53,868 bases of DNA from Lachnospiraceae bacterium (GTDB lineage: Bacteria > Bacillota > Clostridia > Lachnospirales > Lachnospiraceae). Within the stretch, counting starts at the first letter, position 1. The number at the start of each line of letters is the position of its first letter. Positions 26,925-34,480 of the stretch are shown here, piece by piece. The notes below the pieces were generated by a model. That model saw only the letters and a program-made list of their open reading frames with translations. It was not told the DNA's origin and ran no database searches. A program made the translations under genes and the position numbers. The stretch covers positions 1-53,868 of the forward strand of contig JAGPFR010000015.1 in the NCBI GenBank assembly GCA_018056425.1, read 5' to 3'.

Positions 26925-28600
26925 ATGGATATTGATAAGATTAAAGCTAAATTACATGATCTTTTCTGTGAAGAAGCGGCCATCGTTCTGTATGAATCAG
27001 ACAGGGATAATGCTGCTTCGGCCGAAATAATCGGCGAGCTTAAGATCGGCAGGATAGTTTTTTCGAATATAAAGATATGTCTGCCGAACTTCGTGACGAT
27101 CCGGCCATTGTTAACGTCAGATATGAGGGAGACAGTTTTAACGAAGACGATTATGTAATGAATCGTTCCGTTGTGCCCAGCGGAAATGTCGTACGAGTAT
27201 GCATATTTCCTGTTGCAGGGTATACATGGAGCGAAGAAGAGAGAAAACTGGTCGGAGAATACCTGCTTATCATCTCTACTCTTAAGAGCCGTATCAGGAT
27301 GAAGGAGTTCATAGAGTATGCCACATTCCATGAGCGTGAACTCGGTTTTTTCAACAGCTTTTATCTCGGAAGAACACTTTCAATGATCCAGAAGCTCGAC
27401 AGACTTTCCGAGTATTCGATCATATTCTTTAACCTGGTCAATATATCAGGTATCAATTCAATGCTCGGAAGATCAGAGGCGGATTTTATGATCAAGAGAT
27501 TCGGAAGCATGCTTTCCGAGATACTTGAACAGCCCGAGTGCCTGTGCAGAATGGGCGGAGATAATTTCGTGATCGTTGCAAGGCATGAACATACCGATTC
27601 CCTTCTCAGGATATTAAAGGGAACCGACATGACCGGCGATGCATCATTCTGGGAGACTATCAGAATGAGTGCATATTGCGGAGTATATCATTGTTCAGGC
27701 AGAGAGAAGAGTTTCTCCGAATGCATCGACTATGCCCAGGCATCGATGCTTATTGCGAAAAATACGAACCATGCCAATGTTCAGCTGTATGATGAGAAGA
27801 TGGTCCGTATTGTTAATAACACGAGAAAGATCGAATCACGTTTTAAGGATGCGATCGTTAAGGGTGAATTTGTAGCATATTACCAGCCCAAAGTTAATCT
27901 GGAGAATAACCTTCTGATCGGAGCGGAGGCGCTCTGCAGATGGAACAGGGGTAAGAAGATCCTGACTCCGGACAGTTTTATCCAGATACTTGAAAAGAGT
28001 AACAGAATATGTTCGCTCGACTATTACATGCTCGAAACTGTCTGCAAGGATATTTCAGGCTGGATGGATAAAGGGATCACTCCCGTAAGAGTATCGACCA
28101 ACTTCTCGAGAAAACACCTCGGTAATCCTAATTTTGTATCAGAGGTAATAAATATAGTCGATGAGTATAAGATTCCCCGTTCACTCATTGTGATCGAGCT
28201 TACGGAGACTACGACGGAATCGGATCTGATCAGACTTTCCAACTGCGTACAGGCCTTCAGAAATGCAGGATTCGATGTTTCTGTCGATGATTTCGGTGTC
28301 GGCTATTCGTCGATGAGCATGATAAAGGATATTCCTTTTTCCGAGATCAAGATCGACAGGAGTTTTATCAGCAGCGAATCGATAAGCGACCGTGACATGA
28401 TCATGATGAAACATATCATCTCCATGGCTGAGGATCTCGGAATGAATACAATCGCCGAAGGCGTGGAGACTAAGGAGCAGATAGAGATCCTTAAAAAGTA
28501 CGGATGCCTTCGCGGACAGGGATACTTCTTTGACAAGCCCCTTACGAAAGAAGAGTTTGAAAATGTACTCAATAACCCCGATTACAATTCGAGAGGTTAG
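26925..28600 (+). CDS. Degenerate GGDEF - EAL c-di-GMP phosphodiesterase, with an apparent frameshift at T6 (27058-27063)
   Basis: Two overlapping frames read as one protein of about 558 residues. ATG 26925 opens frame one (MDIDKIKAKLHDLFCEEAAI to GRIVF); at GTTTTTTCG a one-base shift continues as FEYKDMSAELRDDP. A start at 27077 has no ribosome site. The GGDEF domain (about 165-300) has GGDNF instead of GGDEF and is probably inactive as a cyclase. The EAL domain (about 305-545) keeps GAEALCRW, the Asn of VSTNFS, ELTE, DDFGVGYSS, KIDRSF and EGVET, so it should cleave c-di-GMP. No membrane segment. The next gene starts 3 bp on. The shift could be a sequencing error, a mutation, or slippage on the T tract. 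Confidence 0.75.
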
Positions 28601-28603
28601 TAT

Positions 28604-29041
28604 ATGAAAAAATCAAAGAAAAAACTCACATTTGCATCGTCTGCCATCGCTGCGGGAGCAATGTTTGGTCTGGTAGGCTGCCCAAGCGGATGTGTATACG
28701 GTCCTCCTCAGGATGGTCCTCAACCCGATGTATACGGGCCTCCCGAATTCATTGAGGAGAATATTGACGAACCCGTACCTGTGGTTTACGGACCGCCCGA
28801 ATACTTCGATGAGAATTTGGATCAGCCCGAGGAGCCTGTTTACGGTCCGCCTCCGGTCGATATAGACGAGCCCATAGAAGAGGTTTACGGACCGCCAGAG
28901 GATTTTGAATACGACGGTTCGGTCGAAAGCTCAGCTTCTCCTGACGGAGAAGACGGAAAAGAGCGGGACGATTCCGTTTCAAATCCGGAAGATGATATCG
29001 ATGGACCCATGGTTACTGTCTACGGACCGCCTGAGCCGTAA
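28604..29041 (+). CDS. Lipoprotein-like protein with six VYGPP repeats, candidate radical SAM substrate
   Basis: The 145-residue protein starts with a basic n-region (MKKSKKKLTF), a hydrophobic stretch and the lipobox LVGC, so Cys26 could be lipidated; a second Cys is at 30. The mature part is acidic and Pro-rich and repeats VYGPP at 31, 43, 61, 79, 94 and 139, usually followed by Glu or Asp and separated by acidic linkers such as EENIDEP. I recognise no family. It lies 3 bp after the EAL gene (GAGAGG ribosome site inside the EAL 3' end) and 12 bp before a radical SAM/SPASM enzyme. The repeat with Tyr-Gly-Pro-Pro beside such an enzyme suggests a modified peptide, as in His-Xaa-Ser repeat systems. 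The modification is inferred, not seen. Confidence 0.75.
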   Translation: MKKSKKKLTFASSAIAAGAMFGLVGCPSGCVYGPPQDGPQPDVYGPPEFIEENIDEPVPVVYGPPEYFDENLDQPEEPVYGPPPVDIDEPIEEVYGPPEDFEYDGSVESSASPDGEDGKERDDSVSNPEDDIDGPMVTVYGPPEP

Positions 29042-29053
29042 AGAGGATCTGTA

Positions 29054-30166
29054 ATGAATCTTGAAGAATTTAAGGGATATTCTGCCGAAGCTCCGGAAGT
29101 GATGGAGTATAAGAAGGCTATTCTGGATAAAAGGTCTGAGGTCAGGGAAAGGCTTTATACAAAGCCTGACCTCAGGCATCTTTTTTTCGAACTCACACTT
29201 TCATGTAACGAAAAATGTTTCCATTGCGGATCAAGATGCGAGCCCGGTGTTCCCACGGGGCTTTCTTTTGATAAGATCAGGGAAGTCATCGATGAGGTTT
29301 CTGAGAATTTCGACAAAAAACGCATCATGATCTGTATAACCGGCGGCGAGCCCATGCTGCGTCCGGACTTTTTTGATATCGTTTCCTACATACATGAGAA
29401 GGGCTTTGTCTGGGGCATGACCTCAAACGCTACCCTGATCACTAAGGAGAATGCGCGTCGTTTAAAAGAATGCGGAATGGCTACGATATCTGTAAGCATC
29501 GACGGCCTTGAAGAAACTCATGACAGACAAAGAGGGCTTAAAGGCGGTTATAAGCTTGCGATGAGAGGAATTCAGAATCTTATTGACGAGCATTTTTTCC
29601 ATGCGGTTCAGATCACCACGGTAATAAACCATAAGAATATTTCTGAACTCGATGAGCTTTTTGACATAGTAAATAACATCGATATAGACTCCTGGAGAGT
29701 CATCGGGATCGAACCCATAGGCAGGGCTCTCGAATATCCCGATATGCTCCTTACACCCGACGATCAGAGAAGGCTGTTTTCTTTTATCCTGGAGAAAAGA
29801 AGAGATGGATTTCCGGTAGAATACGGCTGTTCCCATTTCCTGGGATTCGATCTTGAAGGCAATGTCAGGGATAAGATGTTCCTTTGTAATGCGGGCGTTT
29901 TTACGACTTCCGTAAGGGCAAACGGCGATATCACAGCGTGCCTTGATATCATGCCCAGAGATGAGGTTATCTACGGAAACGTTAATACCGACTCTTTTAC
30001 CGAGTCCTGGAATAACAGATTTCAAATTTTCAGAAAACATCTTTCAGAGCTTAATAAAGACTGTAAAGAGTGTGAATTTGAGAAATGGTGTGCGGGCGGG
30101 GCGCATCACAGCTGGGACTATGATGCCAACAAACCCTTAATTTGCTTTAAAGATGTGCTTTTTTGA
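29054..30166 (+). CDS. Radical SAM / SPASM-type enzyme, likely modifier of the VYGPP protein
   Basis: The 370-residue protein carries the radical SAM motif CNEKCFHC (C51, C55, C58), the GGEP motif (97-100) and a partial TIM barrel to about 240. A SPASM-like C-terminus follows: C278 with 12 residues to G291 and C296, then C337, C340 and C346 (CX2CX5C) and C364. The Cys usually four residues after the last of these is Ala350. C259 lies upstream. SPASM enzymes bind auxiliary Fe-S clusters and modify peptides (crosslinks, thioethers, oxidations). No peptidase, RRE-like gene or transporter is beside it. AGAGGAT precedes the ATG; a 12-bp gap follows the repeat gene, so they are co-translated. Substrate is inferred from position. 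Confidence 0.88.
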   Translation: MNLEEFKGYSAEAPEVMEYKKAILDKRSEVRERLYTKPDLRHLFFELTLSCNEKCFHCGSRCEPGVPTGLSFDKIREVIDEVSENFDKKRIMICITGGEPMLRPDFFDIVSYIHEKGFVWGMTSNATLITKENARRLKECGMATISVSIDGLEETHDRQRGLKGGYKLAMRGIQNLIDEHFFHAVQITTVINHKNISELDELFDIVNNIDIDSWRVIGIEPIGRALEYPDMLLTPDDQRRLFSFILEKRRDGFPVEYGCSHFLGFDLEGNVRDKMFLCNAGVFTTSVRANGDITACLDIMPRDEVIYGNVNTDSFTESWNNRFQIFRKHLSELNKDCKECEFEKWCAGGAHHSWDYDANKPLICFKDVLF

Positions 30167-30242: not shown

Positions 30243-32198
30243 TTGCAGATAGTTGACAGAGTAAATTATTTTGACATTTGTTCCATCTTCGTTCTTCTTG
30301 CGATACTTGTATCGCTTCTTCTTCGCAAGATGTACCGCGGAGGATTGAACAGGGCGTTTATACAGCTTGCGATTTTAATGATCCTGAGCTGTATTTTTGA
30401 TATACTCAGAGCTCTTCCCTTCAAAGAAGGAAATGCTATCGGCTCGTCCGTTGTTTTCCGATTCGTGATGGGCTATATATTCTGTTTCCTGCGGGCGCTT
30501 CAGATGCCTTTGCTGATACGTCTTTACGGTATCATGAGCGGTACCTGGAGCCGTATCAAATACGACTTCAGGATCGGTGTTTTCTATTTCTTCCCGCTTA
30601 TGGGGTATCTCATTCTGGTATATTCCAATTTCTTCAATCAGCGTATTTTTAATTATGTGCTTACGGCCGATGGAATTTTATATGTCCGCGGTGATCTTAT
30701 GCCTTTGTTTGATTACTTCGGATTCTACTTCATGGTATTCAGCCTTATCCAGCTATTCATCATCAGAAAGCGGCTCAGTGTCGAGAAGTTCCTTGCAATG
30801 CTTCTCGTATATCCTGTTAATGTCCTTGCAATTCTTATTCAGAATGTGTATCCGGAGCTTATGACCGGAATGTTCGGTGCGGCTCTTTCGGTTCTTATCC
30901 TTGCATTCTTTGTTTTCAGGCCCGATGAATCCATCGATCTTGAGACAGGACTTTCATCATTCGTTCCTTTTGAGAACGATATCGAAAACCTCATCTTAAG
31001 CGGCAGAAGAGGAATAGTGATCTTCTGTAAGATATCCAATGATTCCGAGATAAGAAGCCTTACCGACATCAGAGTCTACAGAAGGATCTTAAGATCCGTC
31101 GGAGACATTCTGGTAAAAGAAAGATACAGAGGACTTCTTTCTTCATCCGATTTTTATTACTTAAGAGGCGGTCTTTACGCCAATATCATACAGGGAAGAT
31201 TTGACCGTAATCTGATCAGAAAGCAGATCGATAAGCTTGTGGACAGATATTCGGAAGGCTATTCGGGTGCAGGCTATGATGTCCAGCTTGATATGTGTAT
31301 CTGTTCCGTTCTTGTTCCGGATGACATTTCCGAAACAGAAGAACTGATGAAGTTCTCCGAGCGTATCCAGAAACTCATTGAGCCCTGGAAGCCCGTTCAG
31401 TATTCGGAGATTTCTTTTGACAGAGAATTCGTGATCCTTAATTCCATCGATTCCATCATCGAGGATGCGATAAGACATAACAAATTTGAAATGTACTATC
31501 AGCCCATTTATTCTCTCAAGGATAAGACCTATAAATGCGCTGAAGCCCTTATAAGACTTAATTCCGAAGAGTTCGGATCAATATCGCCTTCGATATTTAT
31601 CCCGGCTGCCGAGAAGACCGGCAGGATAGTTCACATCGGCGATTTCGTCATAAAGGATGTATGCAGATTCCTGTCCCAGCATTCACCTGAGGAACTCGGT
31701 GTCGATTATATCGAAGTCAACCTGTCCATAATCCAGTGTATGCAGGCGGATATGGCCGCCAAGATCAAGAAGTACATGTCGGAATATCATATCGATTCGA
31801 ACTGGATCAATTTTGAGATCACAGAAACCGCTGCGGACGGTGCATATGAGAGGGTTCTTGAGACCATGAATGAAATTTCCGCGGAAGGCATCAGGTTCTC
31901 GCTTGATGATTACGGCTCGGGATATTCCAATCTTCACAGAGTCATGTCCTTCCCCTACAAGGTTATCAAGCTTGATAAATCCCTTACCGATGAGGCTGCA
32001 GACCCCGATAAGAGACGTATTCTTGAAGAAGCGATAAAACTTATCAAGAGTATGGGTGCACGAATCGTCGTAGAAGGTGTAGAATCTAAAGAGATATCGG
32101 ACTGGTTTGAAGCACAGGGGTGCGATTTCATTCAGGGATTCTACTATGCAAAACCCATGAGTGAAAGAGATTATCTGAATTTCATGAAGGTTGAATAA
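30243..32198 (+). CDS. Membrane GGDEF-like / EAL c-di-GMP phosphodiesterase
   Basis: The start is TTG 30243, 8 bases after GGGGGAG; there is no better ATG before the first helix (651 residues). About seven membrane helices (residues 12-230) form a sensor unit. The region about 235-395 occupies the GGDEF position but reads RGGLYANI, so it cannot be a cyclase. The EAL domain (about 405-645) has CAEALIRL, EVNLS, EITET, LDDYGSGYSN, KLDKSL and EGVES, all needed for c-di-GMP cleavage. It would sense a signal in the membrane and lower c-di-GMP. A hybrid kinase gene starts 2 bp later, so both are in one operon. Confidence 0.9.
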   Translation: MQIVDRVNYFDICSIFVLLAILVSLLLRKMYRGGLNRAFIQLAILMILSCIFDILRALPFKEGNAIGSSVVFRFVMGYIFCFLRALQMPLLIRLYGIMSGTWSRIKYDFRIGVFYFFPLMGYLILVYSNFFNQRIFNYVLTADGILYVRGDLMPLFDYFGFYFMVFSLIQLFIIRKRLSVEKFLAMLLVYPVNVLAILIQNVYPELMTGMFGAALSVLILAFFVFRPDESIDLETGLSSFVPFENDIENLILSGRRGIVIFCKISNDSEIRSLTDIRVYRRILRSVGDILVKERYRGLLSSSDFYYLRGGLYANIIQGRFDRNLIRKQIDKLVDRYSEGYSGAGYDVQLDMCICSVLVPDDISETEELMKFSERIQKLIEPWKPVQYSEISFDREFVILNSIDSIIEDAIRHNKFEMYYQPIYSLKDKTYKCAEALIRLNSEEFGSISPSIFIPAAEKTGRIVHIGDFVIKDVCRFLSQHSPEELGVDYIEVNLSIIQCMQADMAAKIKKYMSEYHIDSNWINFEITETAADGAYERVLETMNEISAEGIRFSLDDYGSGYSNLHRVMSFPYKVIKLDKSLTDEAADPDKRRILEEAIKLIKSMGARIVVEGVESKEISDWFEAQGCDFIQGFYYAKPMSERDYLNFMKVE

Positions 32199-32200
32199 TT

Positions 32201-34480
32201 TTGAATATTGTCACCTGCATTTATCTGATTGCTTTAGTATTTGCAGCGCTGAACATTGTACTGCTGATCGAATCAGGCATCAGACCCGACATTTACACAG
32301 TCCTTCTGATGAGTGCCATCGTAATTGCAAACGGAGGCTACTTGTGTATTGCCGTTTCGAAGTCTGTTGATGCTGCGATCATAGGCAATTCTTTGGTCTA
32401 TCTGGGCGGATGTTATCTGCCCTTTTTTGTATTCTGTATCGGTGCGGATCTTACCGGCATTCATCCCCCCAAATGGCTCAAACTCTTTATGGTGGGACTG
32501 TCCACCTTTGTTTTCATCTGCACTTTCACGGTCGGAAGATCCTCAGTCTACTATAAGACCATCTCAATAGCTGACGGCGGCGGATTTACCATAGTGGTAA
32601 AAGAGTACGGACCGCTTCATTACGTCTATTATATAATGCTCGCGGTATACATGCTTGCGGTTGCCCTTGTAACCGGATTTGCGGTAAGGAGAAGAAACGT
32701 TGTCTCGTATAAGACTACGATCCTGTATTCCGTATTTTTGTTTTCCAATTTTATGATCTATGCGATCGACAGATTCCTGAATATCAACTTCGAATTAAAC
32801 TCGGTAACTTATCTGATAACGGAGATCACTATCCTTCTGATTTACAAACGTGTCAGTATGTATGATATGACATACAACGTCATGAGCATCTGGGAGAAGA
32901 TGGAGGAGTATGCTTATATCGTCTTTGACAGGAATAAGAAGTACCTCGGATCCAACGCCCTTGCAAGACAGTATTTCGATAATCTTAAGCTGCAGGAAAT
33001 AGACAGGAAACTGTCCGATAATCTTCCCGAGATTACAGAGCTCCTGGACCGTTTTGACAGGATGAATCCGACTGAAGATTATGACTCCAAATATGTCTAT
33101 CGCGAAACCATCAAACTGTCGGGAAGAGTTCTCAAGAGTGAAGTAAAATTCCTCAGCAGAAAGCGTTCGTTAAGCTTTCTCGGTAATTCCGTCTACGGAT
33201 ATCTGGTCGAATTTTACGATGTTACCAAGGACAGCGAATACATTCAGTCAATCGAAGAGAAGAACGAAAGACTTGCCGCAGCGGAAAAACGTGCCCTTGA
33301 AGCATCGAATGCCAAGAGTGATTTCCTCTCTTCCATGTCTCACGAGATAAGAACCCCCATCAATACCATCCTCGGAATGAATGAGATGATCTCGAGAGAA
33401 GCAAACGACATGGTTATCCTCAGCTATTCGAGGGATGTCGAAAAAGCAGGACATCTGCTTCTGAACCTGGTTAACGACGTTCTGGATTTTTCCAAGATCG
33501 AAGCCGGCAATTATGAACTCGATGAAAAAGAATACTCCATTCAGGAACTTGCGGATACGGCAGGTAAAATGCTTGAAAAGAGAGCATCCGAGAAGGGGCT
33601 TCGAATCGCTCTGGATGTTGATCCCGGTATGCCTTCGGGCCTTATCGGTGACAGCGGAAAGATCGAACAGATTATGCTCAATCTCGTTACAAATGCCGTT
33701 AAATATACGAACGAAGGATATATCAGGATATCCGTTACCGGTGATTATACGGAGGACGGTTATGATCTGGAACTGTCCGTAAGCGATACGGGTATAGGTA
33801 TCCGTACGGAGGATATCGACCATATCTTTGACAGCTTTACAAGAGCGGATCTTCGTAAGAACAGGCATATCGAAGGAACAGGTCTGGGACTTGCAATTAC
33901 CAAGAGACTTTGCGAGGGAATGGGCGGAAGCATCAAAGTATCCAGCAGATATGGCGAAGGTTCGATTTTTACCGTCAGGATTCCTCAGAAGATAGGTGAT
34001 GCAACATATATCGGTTCGGTAAAACTCAGCAAGCAGACTCAGAAGGTAAAAAGAAAACGTTATGTGGCATCGTTTACTGCGCCTGAAGCACGGGTCCTTA
34101 TTGTTGACGATAACGAAATGAATGTCGAAGTATTTGTTTCGCTCCTTAAAAATACCCGGGTAAAGATAGATAAAGCTTTTGGCGGTAATGAAGCTTTTGA
34201 ACTTTCACGGAAGAACAAATATGACGTTATATTCATGGATCACATGATGCCTGCTCCCGACGGAATAGAAACACTTCATATGATCAGGGAGGATAAGAAC
34301 AATCCCAATATTGAAACACCTGTGCTTGCACTTACCGCAAATGCGGTTTCCGGAAGCATGGAGATGTATATTGCAGAGGGCTTTGACGGATATCTGGCCA
34401 AACCCGTCGATCCTTTTGAACTGGAAGAGAGCGTAAGGGATCGAATCCCTCCGGACCTCATTATTCCAAATATATCTTGA
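32201..34480 (+). CDS. Hybrid sensor histidine kinase with 7-helix membrane sensor and receiver domain
   Basis: The TTG start at 32201 lies 2 bp after the EAL gene (759 residues). Seven membrane helices (about 1-230) resemble the N-terminal 7TM histidine kinase region. A PAS-like domain (about 235-345) and coiled linker lead to HisKA ('SSMSHEIRTPINTILG', phospho-His), HATPase ('LNLVTNAVKY', 'DTGIGI', 'GTGLGLAI') and a C-terminal receiver (about 635-750: 'VLIVDDNEMN', phospho-Asp in 'FMDHMMP', 'LALTANA', 'AKPVDP'). The output partner is unknown. Together with the EAL gene it makes a signal transduction operon next to the VYGPP system. No response regulator gene follows. Confidence 0.93.
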   Translation: MNIVTCIYLIALVFAALNIVLLIESGIRPDIYTVLLMSAIVIANGGYLCIAVSKSVDAAIIGNSLVYLGGCYLPFFVFCIGADLTGIHPPKWLKLFMVGLSTFVFICTFTVGRSSVYYKTISIADGGGFTIVVKEYGPLHYVYYIMLAVYMLAVALVTGFAVRRRNVVSYKTTILYSVFLFSNFMIYAIDRFLNINFELNSVTYLITEITILLIYKRVSMYDMTYNVMSIWEKMEEYAYIVFDRNKKYLGSNALARQYFDNLKLQEIDRKLSDNLPEITELLDRFDRMNPTEDYDSKYVYRETIKLSGRVLKSEVKFLSRKRSLSFLGNSVYGYLVEFYDVTKDSEYIQSIEEKNERLAAAEKRALEASNAKSDFLSSMSHEIRTPINTILGMNEMISREANDMVILSYSRDVEKAGHLLLNLVNDVLDFSKIEAGNYELDEKEYSIQELADTAGKMLEKRASEKGLRIALDVDPGMPSGLIGDSGKIEQIMLNLVTNAVKYTNEGYIRISVTGDYTEDGYDLELSVSDTGIGIRTEDIDHIFDSFTRADLRKNRHIEGTGLGLAITKRLCEGMGGSIKVSSRYGEGSIFTVRIPQKIGDATYIGSVKLSKQTQKVKRKRYVASFTAPEARVLIVDDNEMNVEVFVSLLKNTRVKIDKAFGGNEAFELSRKNKYDVIFMDHMMPAPDGIETLHMIREDKNNPNIETPVLALTANAVSGSMEMYIAEGFDGYLAKPVDPFELEESVRDRIPPDLIIPNIS

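Follow-up and report, generated by a model that had tools for sequence, protein, structure and literature searches.

The window analysed here is a 53,868-nucleotide stretch of DNA from a Lachnospiraceae bacterium (assembly GCA_018056425.1, contig JAGPFR010000015.1, positions 1 to 53,868 of the forward strand). It contains a gene pair in which a lipoprotein with six Val-Tyr-Gly-Pro-Pro (VYGPP) units is encoded directly upstream of a radical S-adenosylmethionine (SAM)/SPASM enzyme. This pair belongs to a large, mostly unnamed family, in which the Tyr-Gly core of the repeat is fixed and the enzymes are related to those of several systems whose partner proteins carry an X-Y-G motif. By analogy with known peptide spliceases, it is probably a splicease-like pair whose lipoprotein products bear several ketoamides and which uses neither a leader peptide nor the recognition element of ribosomally synthesized and post-translationally modified peptides (RiPP recognition element, RRE).

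The gene pair and its conservation

The two open reading frames (ORFs) lie on the plus strand and are separated by 12 bp (Table 1). The ORFs and motif positions agree with the initial annotation, which had described a 145-residue LVGC lipoprotein with six VYGPP units followed by a radical SAM gene; that annotation was right about the pair and, taken as a whole, is partly supported. The signal peptide ends in LVGC, and the N-terminus is, as had been proposed, a Sec- or Tat-like lipoprotein signal rather than a classic leader. The six units start at residues 31, 43, 61, 79, 94, and 139 of the lipoprotein. A DNA pattern for VYGPP gave 6 matches in the window, all within the lipoprotein gene; 100 shuffles averaged 0.01 matches. 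None of 20,000 shuffles of residues 31-145 contained VYGPP more than once. The codons for Val, Gly, and Pro differ among the six units; therefore, selection appears to act on the protein, the amino acids being kept while the DNA drifts. The region from residue 31 to 145 is acidic (34 Asp and Glu versus 2 Lys and Arg), and Pfam and NCBIfam scans of the lipoprotein, including TIGR04134 and the Nif11/NHLP leader families, gave no match.

Among 397 genomes drawn from the same family, 19 matched a profile of the enzyme (E up to 1e-60). The class sample gave matches in 10 of 291 genomes, three of which had already been counted in the family sample. A scan of species genomes revealed at least 585 stretches encoding a relative of the enzyme, and the best 80 loci were kept as named loci (L numbers), a sample that overlaps with that of the family genomes (G numbers; e.g., G116 is L073, and G007 is L118). 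These 80 loci come from Lachnospiraceae, Ruminococcaceae/Saccharofermentans, Erysipelotrichaceae, Coriobacteriia, and others, and many are in assemblies titled as rumen or gut. Viral contigs searched with the window and Parabacteroides enzymes as queries yielded no relative.

A VYGPP-type protein is encoded directly upstream of the enzyme in 77 of the 80 named loci. The strict script count was 76, to which L088 was added after its long ORF had been read; L070 and L138 are cut by a contig end, with units still visible. In 73 of the 76 strictly counted loci, <50 bp separate the end of the lipoprotein ORF from the beginning of the enzyme match; across the 76, the number of VYGPP units per protein ranges from 1 to 7. 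At the level of whole genomes, a profile of the lipoprotein was matched in 20 of the 397 family genomes; VYGPP or VYGPA is present in 12, and all 12 have the enzyme (hypergeometric 2e-18, and 4e-7 for the four genomes outside profile building). The conserved pairing in the named loci supports the initial annotation on this point. The eight matches without a VYGPP-type motif in the matched stretch (G087, G149, G152, G163, G188, G316, G352, and G378) were treated as chance; in L057, which is among them, the large matched protein does contain IYGVP beyond that stretch.

Seen from the side of the enzyme, 17 of the 19 enzyme-bearing family genomes carry a partner in which x-P or P-x-P follows X-Y-G. 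In G189, LYAPPP occurs beside a frame-broken enzyme, and in G041 the enzyme lacks the CX3CX2C motif and no partner was found, either by a profile search of the genome or within 16 kb. In the seven additional genomes of the class search, an X-Y-G partner adjoins the enzyme in every case (7/7).

The VYGPP-bearing ORFs of the 80 loci contain VYGPP 299 times, and units with the Tyr or the Gly replaced (V[not Y]GPP and VY[not G]PP) were not found (0 each). Variants of the first residue number 19 (LYGPP 10, DYGPP 3, MYGPP 2, AYGPP 2, IYGPP 1, and EYGPP 1), those of the prolines are VYGP[not P] (14) and VYG[not P]P (1), and Val is the X residue in 93% of 320 YG contexts. Since no one-letter variant replaces Tyr or Gly, Tyr-Gly is the fixed core of the unit; judging from this pattern, it looks like the reaction site, in line with the earlier suggestion that the Tyr-Gly-Pro-Pro units are the target.

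The first YG Tyr lies 2 to 20 residues past the lipobox Cys in all 74 parsed relatives, and in 23 of them the distance is 2 (Cys-X-Tyr-Gly). In addition, [LIFVMSG]T[FAVIS] is present within the first 18 residues in 64 of the 74, a count given without a baseline; the likeness of the signal regions could mean that the enzyme reads this part of the protein. Ten Coriobacteriia relatives (L108, L109, L119, L126, L131, L134, L135, L139, L140, and L144) have RRxF/I twin-arginine-like lipoprotein signals, and export in these organisms may proceed via the twin-arginine (Tat) pathway. A second recurring element was observed between the VYGPP units, namely Y(D/E)P followed a few residues on by Asn (e.g., L108, L118, L136, L139, and L142).

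Other proteins with the motif were noted at some distance from an enzyme gene. On its contig C10, the window's own genome encodes another lipoprotein, in which both AYGPP and VYGPP occur (L062/L165:4400-5245), and no enzyme relative was found on that contig; in the ORF of this lipoprotein, an in-frame stop precedes a stretch that is continuous in L063 of the same genus. Another protein, of 47 aa and with no evident signal peptide (L065:1480-1620), contains VYGPPEWFG once, near its end; the enzyme of that genome is ~4.5 kb away.

Relationships of the enzyme and its partners

Pfam Radical_SAM and SPASM domains were both detected above their cut-offs in the window enzyme (PF13186, 32.9 versus 21.5 bits). 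The CX3CX2C motif comprises C51, C55, and C58, and the SPASM-like Cys set comprises C278, C296, C337, C340, C346, and C364, with Ala at position 350 where CX3C expects Cys. The lack of this usual SPASM Cys had been pointed out as unusual; the lack is real, but it is not peculiar to the window enzyme, as the TIGR04133 proteins examined share it. The best NCBIfam match of the enzyme is TIGR04133 ('rSAM_w_lipo') with 262 bits, under the cut-off of 425, and lower scores were obtained against the mycofactocin maturase MftC (143 bits), TIGR04103 (135 bits, cut-off 725), and HxsB of the His-Xaa-Ser system (73 bits, cut-off 370).

Six residues (G59, S60, W214, A225, E268, and R272) are conserved in the lipoprotein clade (19-20 of 20 rows) and its sister group (4-5 of 5 rows) and occur in 0-3 of 10 outgroup rows. 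C259 is invariant in the lipoprotein clade and is present too in 5 of the 10 outgroup rows, while C62 is found in 20/20 rows of the clade and is nearly invariant in a wider 35-row set, being absent in L163. The AlphaFold model of the enzyme is confident (predicted local distance difference test score, pLDDT, 92.1). A fold search with this model gave similarly good matches to SuiB, anSME, SkfB, ChlB, and a sactipeptide enzyme, and the choice of a chemistry by fold search was dropped because the top matches were tied.

Two enzyme trees with 34 and 33 rows were compared, from which PqqE and the other SPASM enzyme of the window genome were left out (very long branches); L005, L007, L108, L137, L156, and the truncated L033 are also left out of the 33-row tree. 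The window clade joins TIGR04133 with support of 95/95 (34 rows) and 97/97 (33 rows), and the two together join the TIGR04103, DUF1843-linked, Tropicibacter, and Agathobacter enzymes (100/97 and 99/98). XYG-labelled enzymes are found on one side of a branch, and the MftC, AhbD-like, TIGR04053, and TIGR04347 enzymes on the other; the Tropicibacter row (L147) is labelled XYG by position only in the 34-row tree.

X-Y-G with a nearby Pro occurs beside related enzymes on several unrelated scaffolds, such as TIGR04134 lipoproteins, DUF805 proteins, zinc ribbons, YYGCP lipoproteins, and a Nif11 peptide. The DUF805 membrane proteins (L050:1489-2211 and L051:1489-2247) have VYGPP units in their C-terminal tails; in G120, the gene of the DUF805 protein sits on a different contig from the enzyme. 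The L034 enzyme is flanked on both sides by YYGCP lipoproteins. The zinc-ribbon partners (IYGPMP, IYGPKP, and IYGPPP in L011, L012, and L033) have no evident signal peptide, which suggests that some substrates are cytoplasmic. The Nostoc enzyme (TIGR04103, 853 bits) adjoins a Nif11 peptide ending in ALYGLPPELF, the Agathobacter enzyme adjoins a short ORF ending in PVMYGTGVRM, and PYG is present in one of two Azospirillum and one of three Aureibacter copies of the DUF1843 partners. In Tropicibacter, the gene of the related enzyme overlaps a trypsin-like peptidase gene (L147:1674-4482).

The TIGR04133/TIGR04134 systems of Bacteroidota and Treponema resemble the window pair in that they consist of two genes, have xYGxP soon after the lipobox Cys of the lipoprotein, and have enzymes of the same clade, in which the SPASM tail likewise lacks the CX3C Cys and C62 and C259 are present. 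In the three TIGR04134 loci examined, the motifs are CYGMP, CEYGSP, and CEYGTP, located 1 to 12 residues past the lipobox Cys. On the other hand, the window enzyme stays under the TIGR04133 cut-off and the window lipoprotein does not match TIGR04134, whose members have one site and a carboxypeptidase-regulatory-like domain, whereas in the VYGPP family an acidic linker carries as many as seven units. The initial annotation knew of no named family with this repeat; a related named family does exist, and TIGR04133 is the nearest one to the enzyme. A TIGR04134 search in 20 relatives gave one weak match, under the cut-off. By its sequence, L164 bridges the two kinds of lipoprotein: its lipoprotein is a TIGR04134 member (52.3 versus 39.8 bits) with the mature start CGMYGPPPRSYY, in which the Tyr of MYGPPP lies three residues past the lipobox Cys, and its enzyme scores 384 bits against the TIGR04133 cut-off of 425 and groups with TIGR04133 (100/99).

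The variety of partners bears on two alternative explanations. One of them, which is improbable, holds that VYGPP serves mainly for recognition or binding and that the modified residue lies elsewhere in the lipoprotein or in its signal region. The N-terminus may be read by the enzyme too, given the alike signal peptides (64/74, without a baseline), but the YG motif is the sole evident common element of the zinc-ribbon, DUF805, and lipoprotein partners examined, and the unit number varies from 1 to 7. Even less credence is given to the idea that the two genes are neighbours by operon history alone, with the repeats serving as structural spacers and the enzyme acting elsewhere. Such a history would accord with the lineage-specific nature of the other neighbours and with the three loci (L078, L124, and L141; 3/80) in which the enzyme has no VYGPP neighbour; it is opposed by the persistence of the motif while the partner scaffolds change, by the separate contigs of motif protein and enzyme in G120, and by G041, where the enzyme has lost the CX3CX2C Cys and no partner was found by the profile search or within 16 kb.

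Predicted chemistry and its alternatives

Radical SAM backbone splicing has been characterized on small precursor peptides and engineered proteins. An excerpt of PMC11002830 names Xaa-Tyr-Gly as the motif of spliceases, and one of PMC10533398 gives MYG and LYG as the natural sites of PlpXY, from which tyramine is excised with a loss of 135.0757 Da per site. The same excerpt reports that tags such as GPIRPLYGLPI were tried with PlpXY and that not all were modified. It was also stated, in a passage of PMC10373908 citing Morinaka 2018 and Scott 2022, that XYG can direct several splicing events in one precursor and that the products inhibit proteases.

The Pleurocapsa PlpXY system (a TIGR04103-type enzyme with Nif11 or NHLP precursors) thus shares with the window pair, as far as these excerpts go, an X-Y-G target and the possibility of several sites per substrate. 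A splicease-like reaction is preferred here because VYGPP conforms to X-Y-G and places a Pro at Tyr+3, like the excerpted RPLYGLPI tag and the Nostoc peptide, and because TIGR04103-type enzymes belong to the sister group of the window clade plus TIGR04133 in the trees; by this analogy, splicing probably takes place at the VYG sites. We infer that the radical SAM/SPASM enzyme acts on the prelipoprotein in the cytoplasm, before export, at Val-Tyr-Gly of the VYGPP units. As in PlpX, a tyramine equivalent would be removed from the Tyr and the backbone rejoined, leaving alpha-keto-beta-valine next to Gly-Pro-Pro, and the modified chain would then be exported and lipidated at Cys26. Such a chain would form an acidic tether at the cell surface and bear as many as six ketoamide electrophiles, of which the first would be near the membrane.

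With regard to the expected product, the initial annotation had predicted a change of -2 Da per repeat or crosslinks, from which the closest published Xaa-Tyr-Gly chemistry departs, being the excision of tyramine (-135.08 Da; excerpt of PMC10533398). Alteration of Tyr-Gly-Pro by other radical chemistry with the chain length kept, such as a Tyr-ring-to-beta-carbon crosslink or the oxidation of Tyr or Pro, is unlikely but deserves more weight than the two alternatives above; it is disfavoured by the match of the motif to the published splicease site, which in the excerpted tag extends to the Pro at Tyr+3, and by the enzymes beside LYG and MYG peptides in the sister group.

Other known systems are further removed. 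MftC is a SPASM enzyme that works on a Val-Tyr pair (excerpt of PMC8326336). Its target is the C-terminal GVY of MftA, MftB adjoins it, and it lies on the opposite side of the tree, whereas the VYG sites of the window are internal, and no shared MftB-like neighbour was seen in the 80 loci. The TIGR03913 'GDL motif' maturases with DUF1843 peptides are on the same tree side as the window enzyme, and some of their partners have PYG, but the peptides are small, no lipoprotein is involved, and the enzymes have the full CX2CX5CX3C. In the His-Xaa-Ser system, a repeat substrate is likewise combined with a radical SAM partner; the repeat is a different one, and the window enzyme is far under the HxsB cut-off.

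Several observations weigh against splicease-like activity. Neither an RRE partner (PlpY) nor a RiPP leader is evident at the loci, and both are part of the characterized PlpXY: PlpX works with the RRE protein PlpY and leader-bearing precursors, whereas the window has a signal peptide and no RRE neighbour. The natural PlpXY sites given in the excerpt are MYG and LYG, whereas X is mostly Val in the window family. The score of the window enzyme is far under the TIGR04103 cut-off (135 of 725 bits), and the lipoprotein clade is without one SPASM Cys that TIGR04103-type rows have. We also take PlpX to be a TIGR04103 member, assuming that IPR026482, the only name used in the review passage, is equal to TIGR04103. 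The support of 94/90 for the XYG side of the tree was obtained with two long-branch rows included. YG varies within the sister group, LYAAG being present in two of three Aureibacter DUF1843 copies, and no XYG precursor was seen at the Tropicibacter locus L147. Within the family itself, there are the three loci without a VYGPP neighbour and possibly decayed units without Gly (LYSNP in L067, EYEAP in L138 and L145, and LYAPPP in L014).

As for function, a surface-held protease inhibitor or trap is suggested as the most likely role, but this assignment is tentative and rather doubtful. It is possible, albeit somewhat short of probable, that a widespread class of RRE-free, leaderless spliceases acts on Sec/Tat prelipoproteins and membrane proteins and builds arrays of ketoamide warheads, anchored in the membrane, which would trap proteases at the surface of gut and rumen bacteria, and that the signal peptide doubles as a leader. 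If the window pair does carry out backbone splicing, gut and rumen surface lipoproteins would naturally bear several beta-amino acid, ketone-bearing sites hidden from genome annotation and standard proteomics. A function would also be suggested for TIGR04133/TIGR04134, whose NCBIfam type is hypothetical equivalog, and for several hundred unnamed relatives, and a splicease without a partner protein would be of use in protein labelling. A literature search gave no mention of VYGPP, YGPP with radical SAM, TIGR04133, TIGR04134, or 'radical SAM-associated putative lipoprotein', but the splicease survey of Scott et al. 2022 (Chem) was outside its coverage and a prior description is possible.

Genomic context and feature coordinates

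When the pair itself, the frames that overlap it, and its antisense shadows are set aside, no gene of at least 45 aa is common to more than 21 of the 80 loci. Therefore, there is no common protease or exporter, as the initial annotation had remarked for the surroundings of the pair, and no RRE gene is common. A PqqD-like search of the genome gave a sole match, under the cut-off and in the frame of another SPASM enzyme, and a divergent or distant RRE could escape this search. An RNA element at the gene junction was rejected as its fold is no better than shuffles (z 1.07), and predicted promoters and terminators were set aside because their counts are near those of shuffles (16 versus 11.5 and 4 versus 4.2, respectively).

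Table 1. Features of the gene pair in the window.
Feature	Coordinates	Strand	Details
VYGPP-repeat lipoprotein, predicted substrate	28604..29041	+	145 aa; signal peptide 1-25, lipobox Cys26, six VYGPP units
Signal peptide and lipobox Cys, MKKSKKKLTFASSAIAAGAMFGLVGC	28604..28681	+	sequence
VYGPP unit 1, residues 31-35, five residues past the lipobox Cys	28694..28708	+	
VYGPP unit 2	28730..28744	+	
VYGPP unit 3	28784..28798	+	
VYGPP unit 4	28838..28852	+	
VYGPP unit 5	28883..28897	+	
VYGPP unit 6	29018..29032	+	
Radical SAM/SPASM enzyme, sister of TIGR04133, predicted splicease-like	29054..30166	+	370 aa

The pair is flanked by a GGDEF-EAL gene (27077-28600), an EAL gene (30243-32198), and a hybrid histidine kinase gene (32201-34480). 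Transcription behind a cyclic di-GMP phosphodiesterase had been proposed as a feature of the pair. An EAL/GGDEF gene does lie upstream, but its cluster is present in only 11 of the 80 loci, and it is therefore regarded as a neighbour of the window's lineage rather than a part of the system. Clusters of GGDEF-EAL, EAL, and hybrid histidine kinase neighbours were found in 8 to 11 of the 80 loci.
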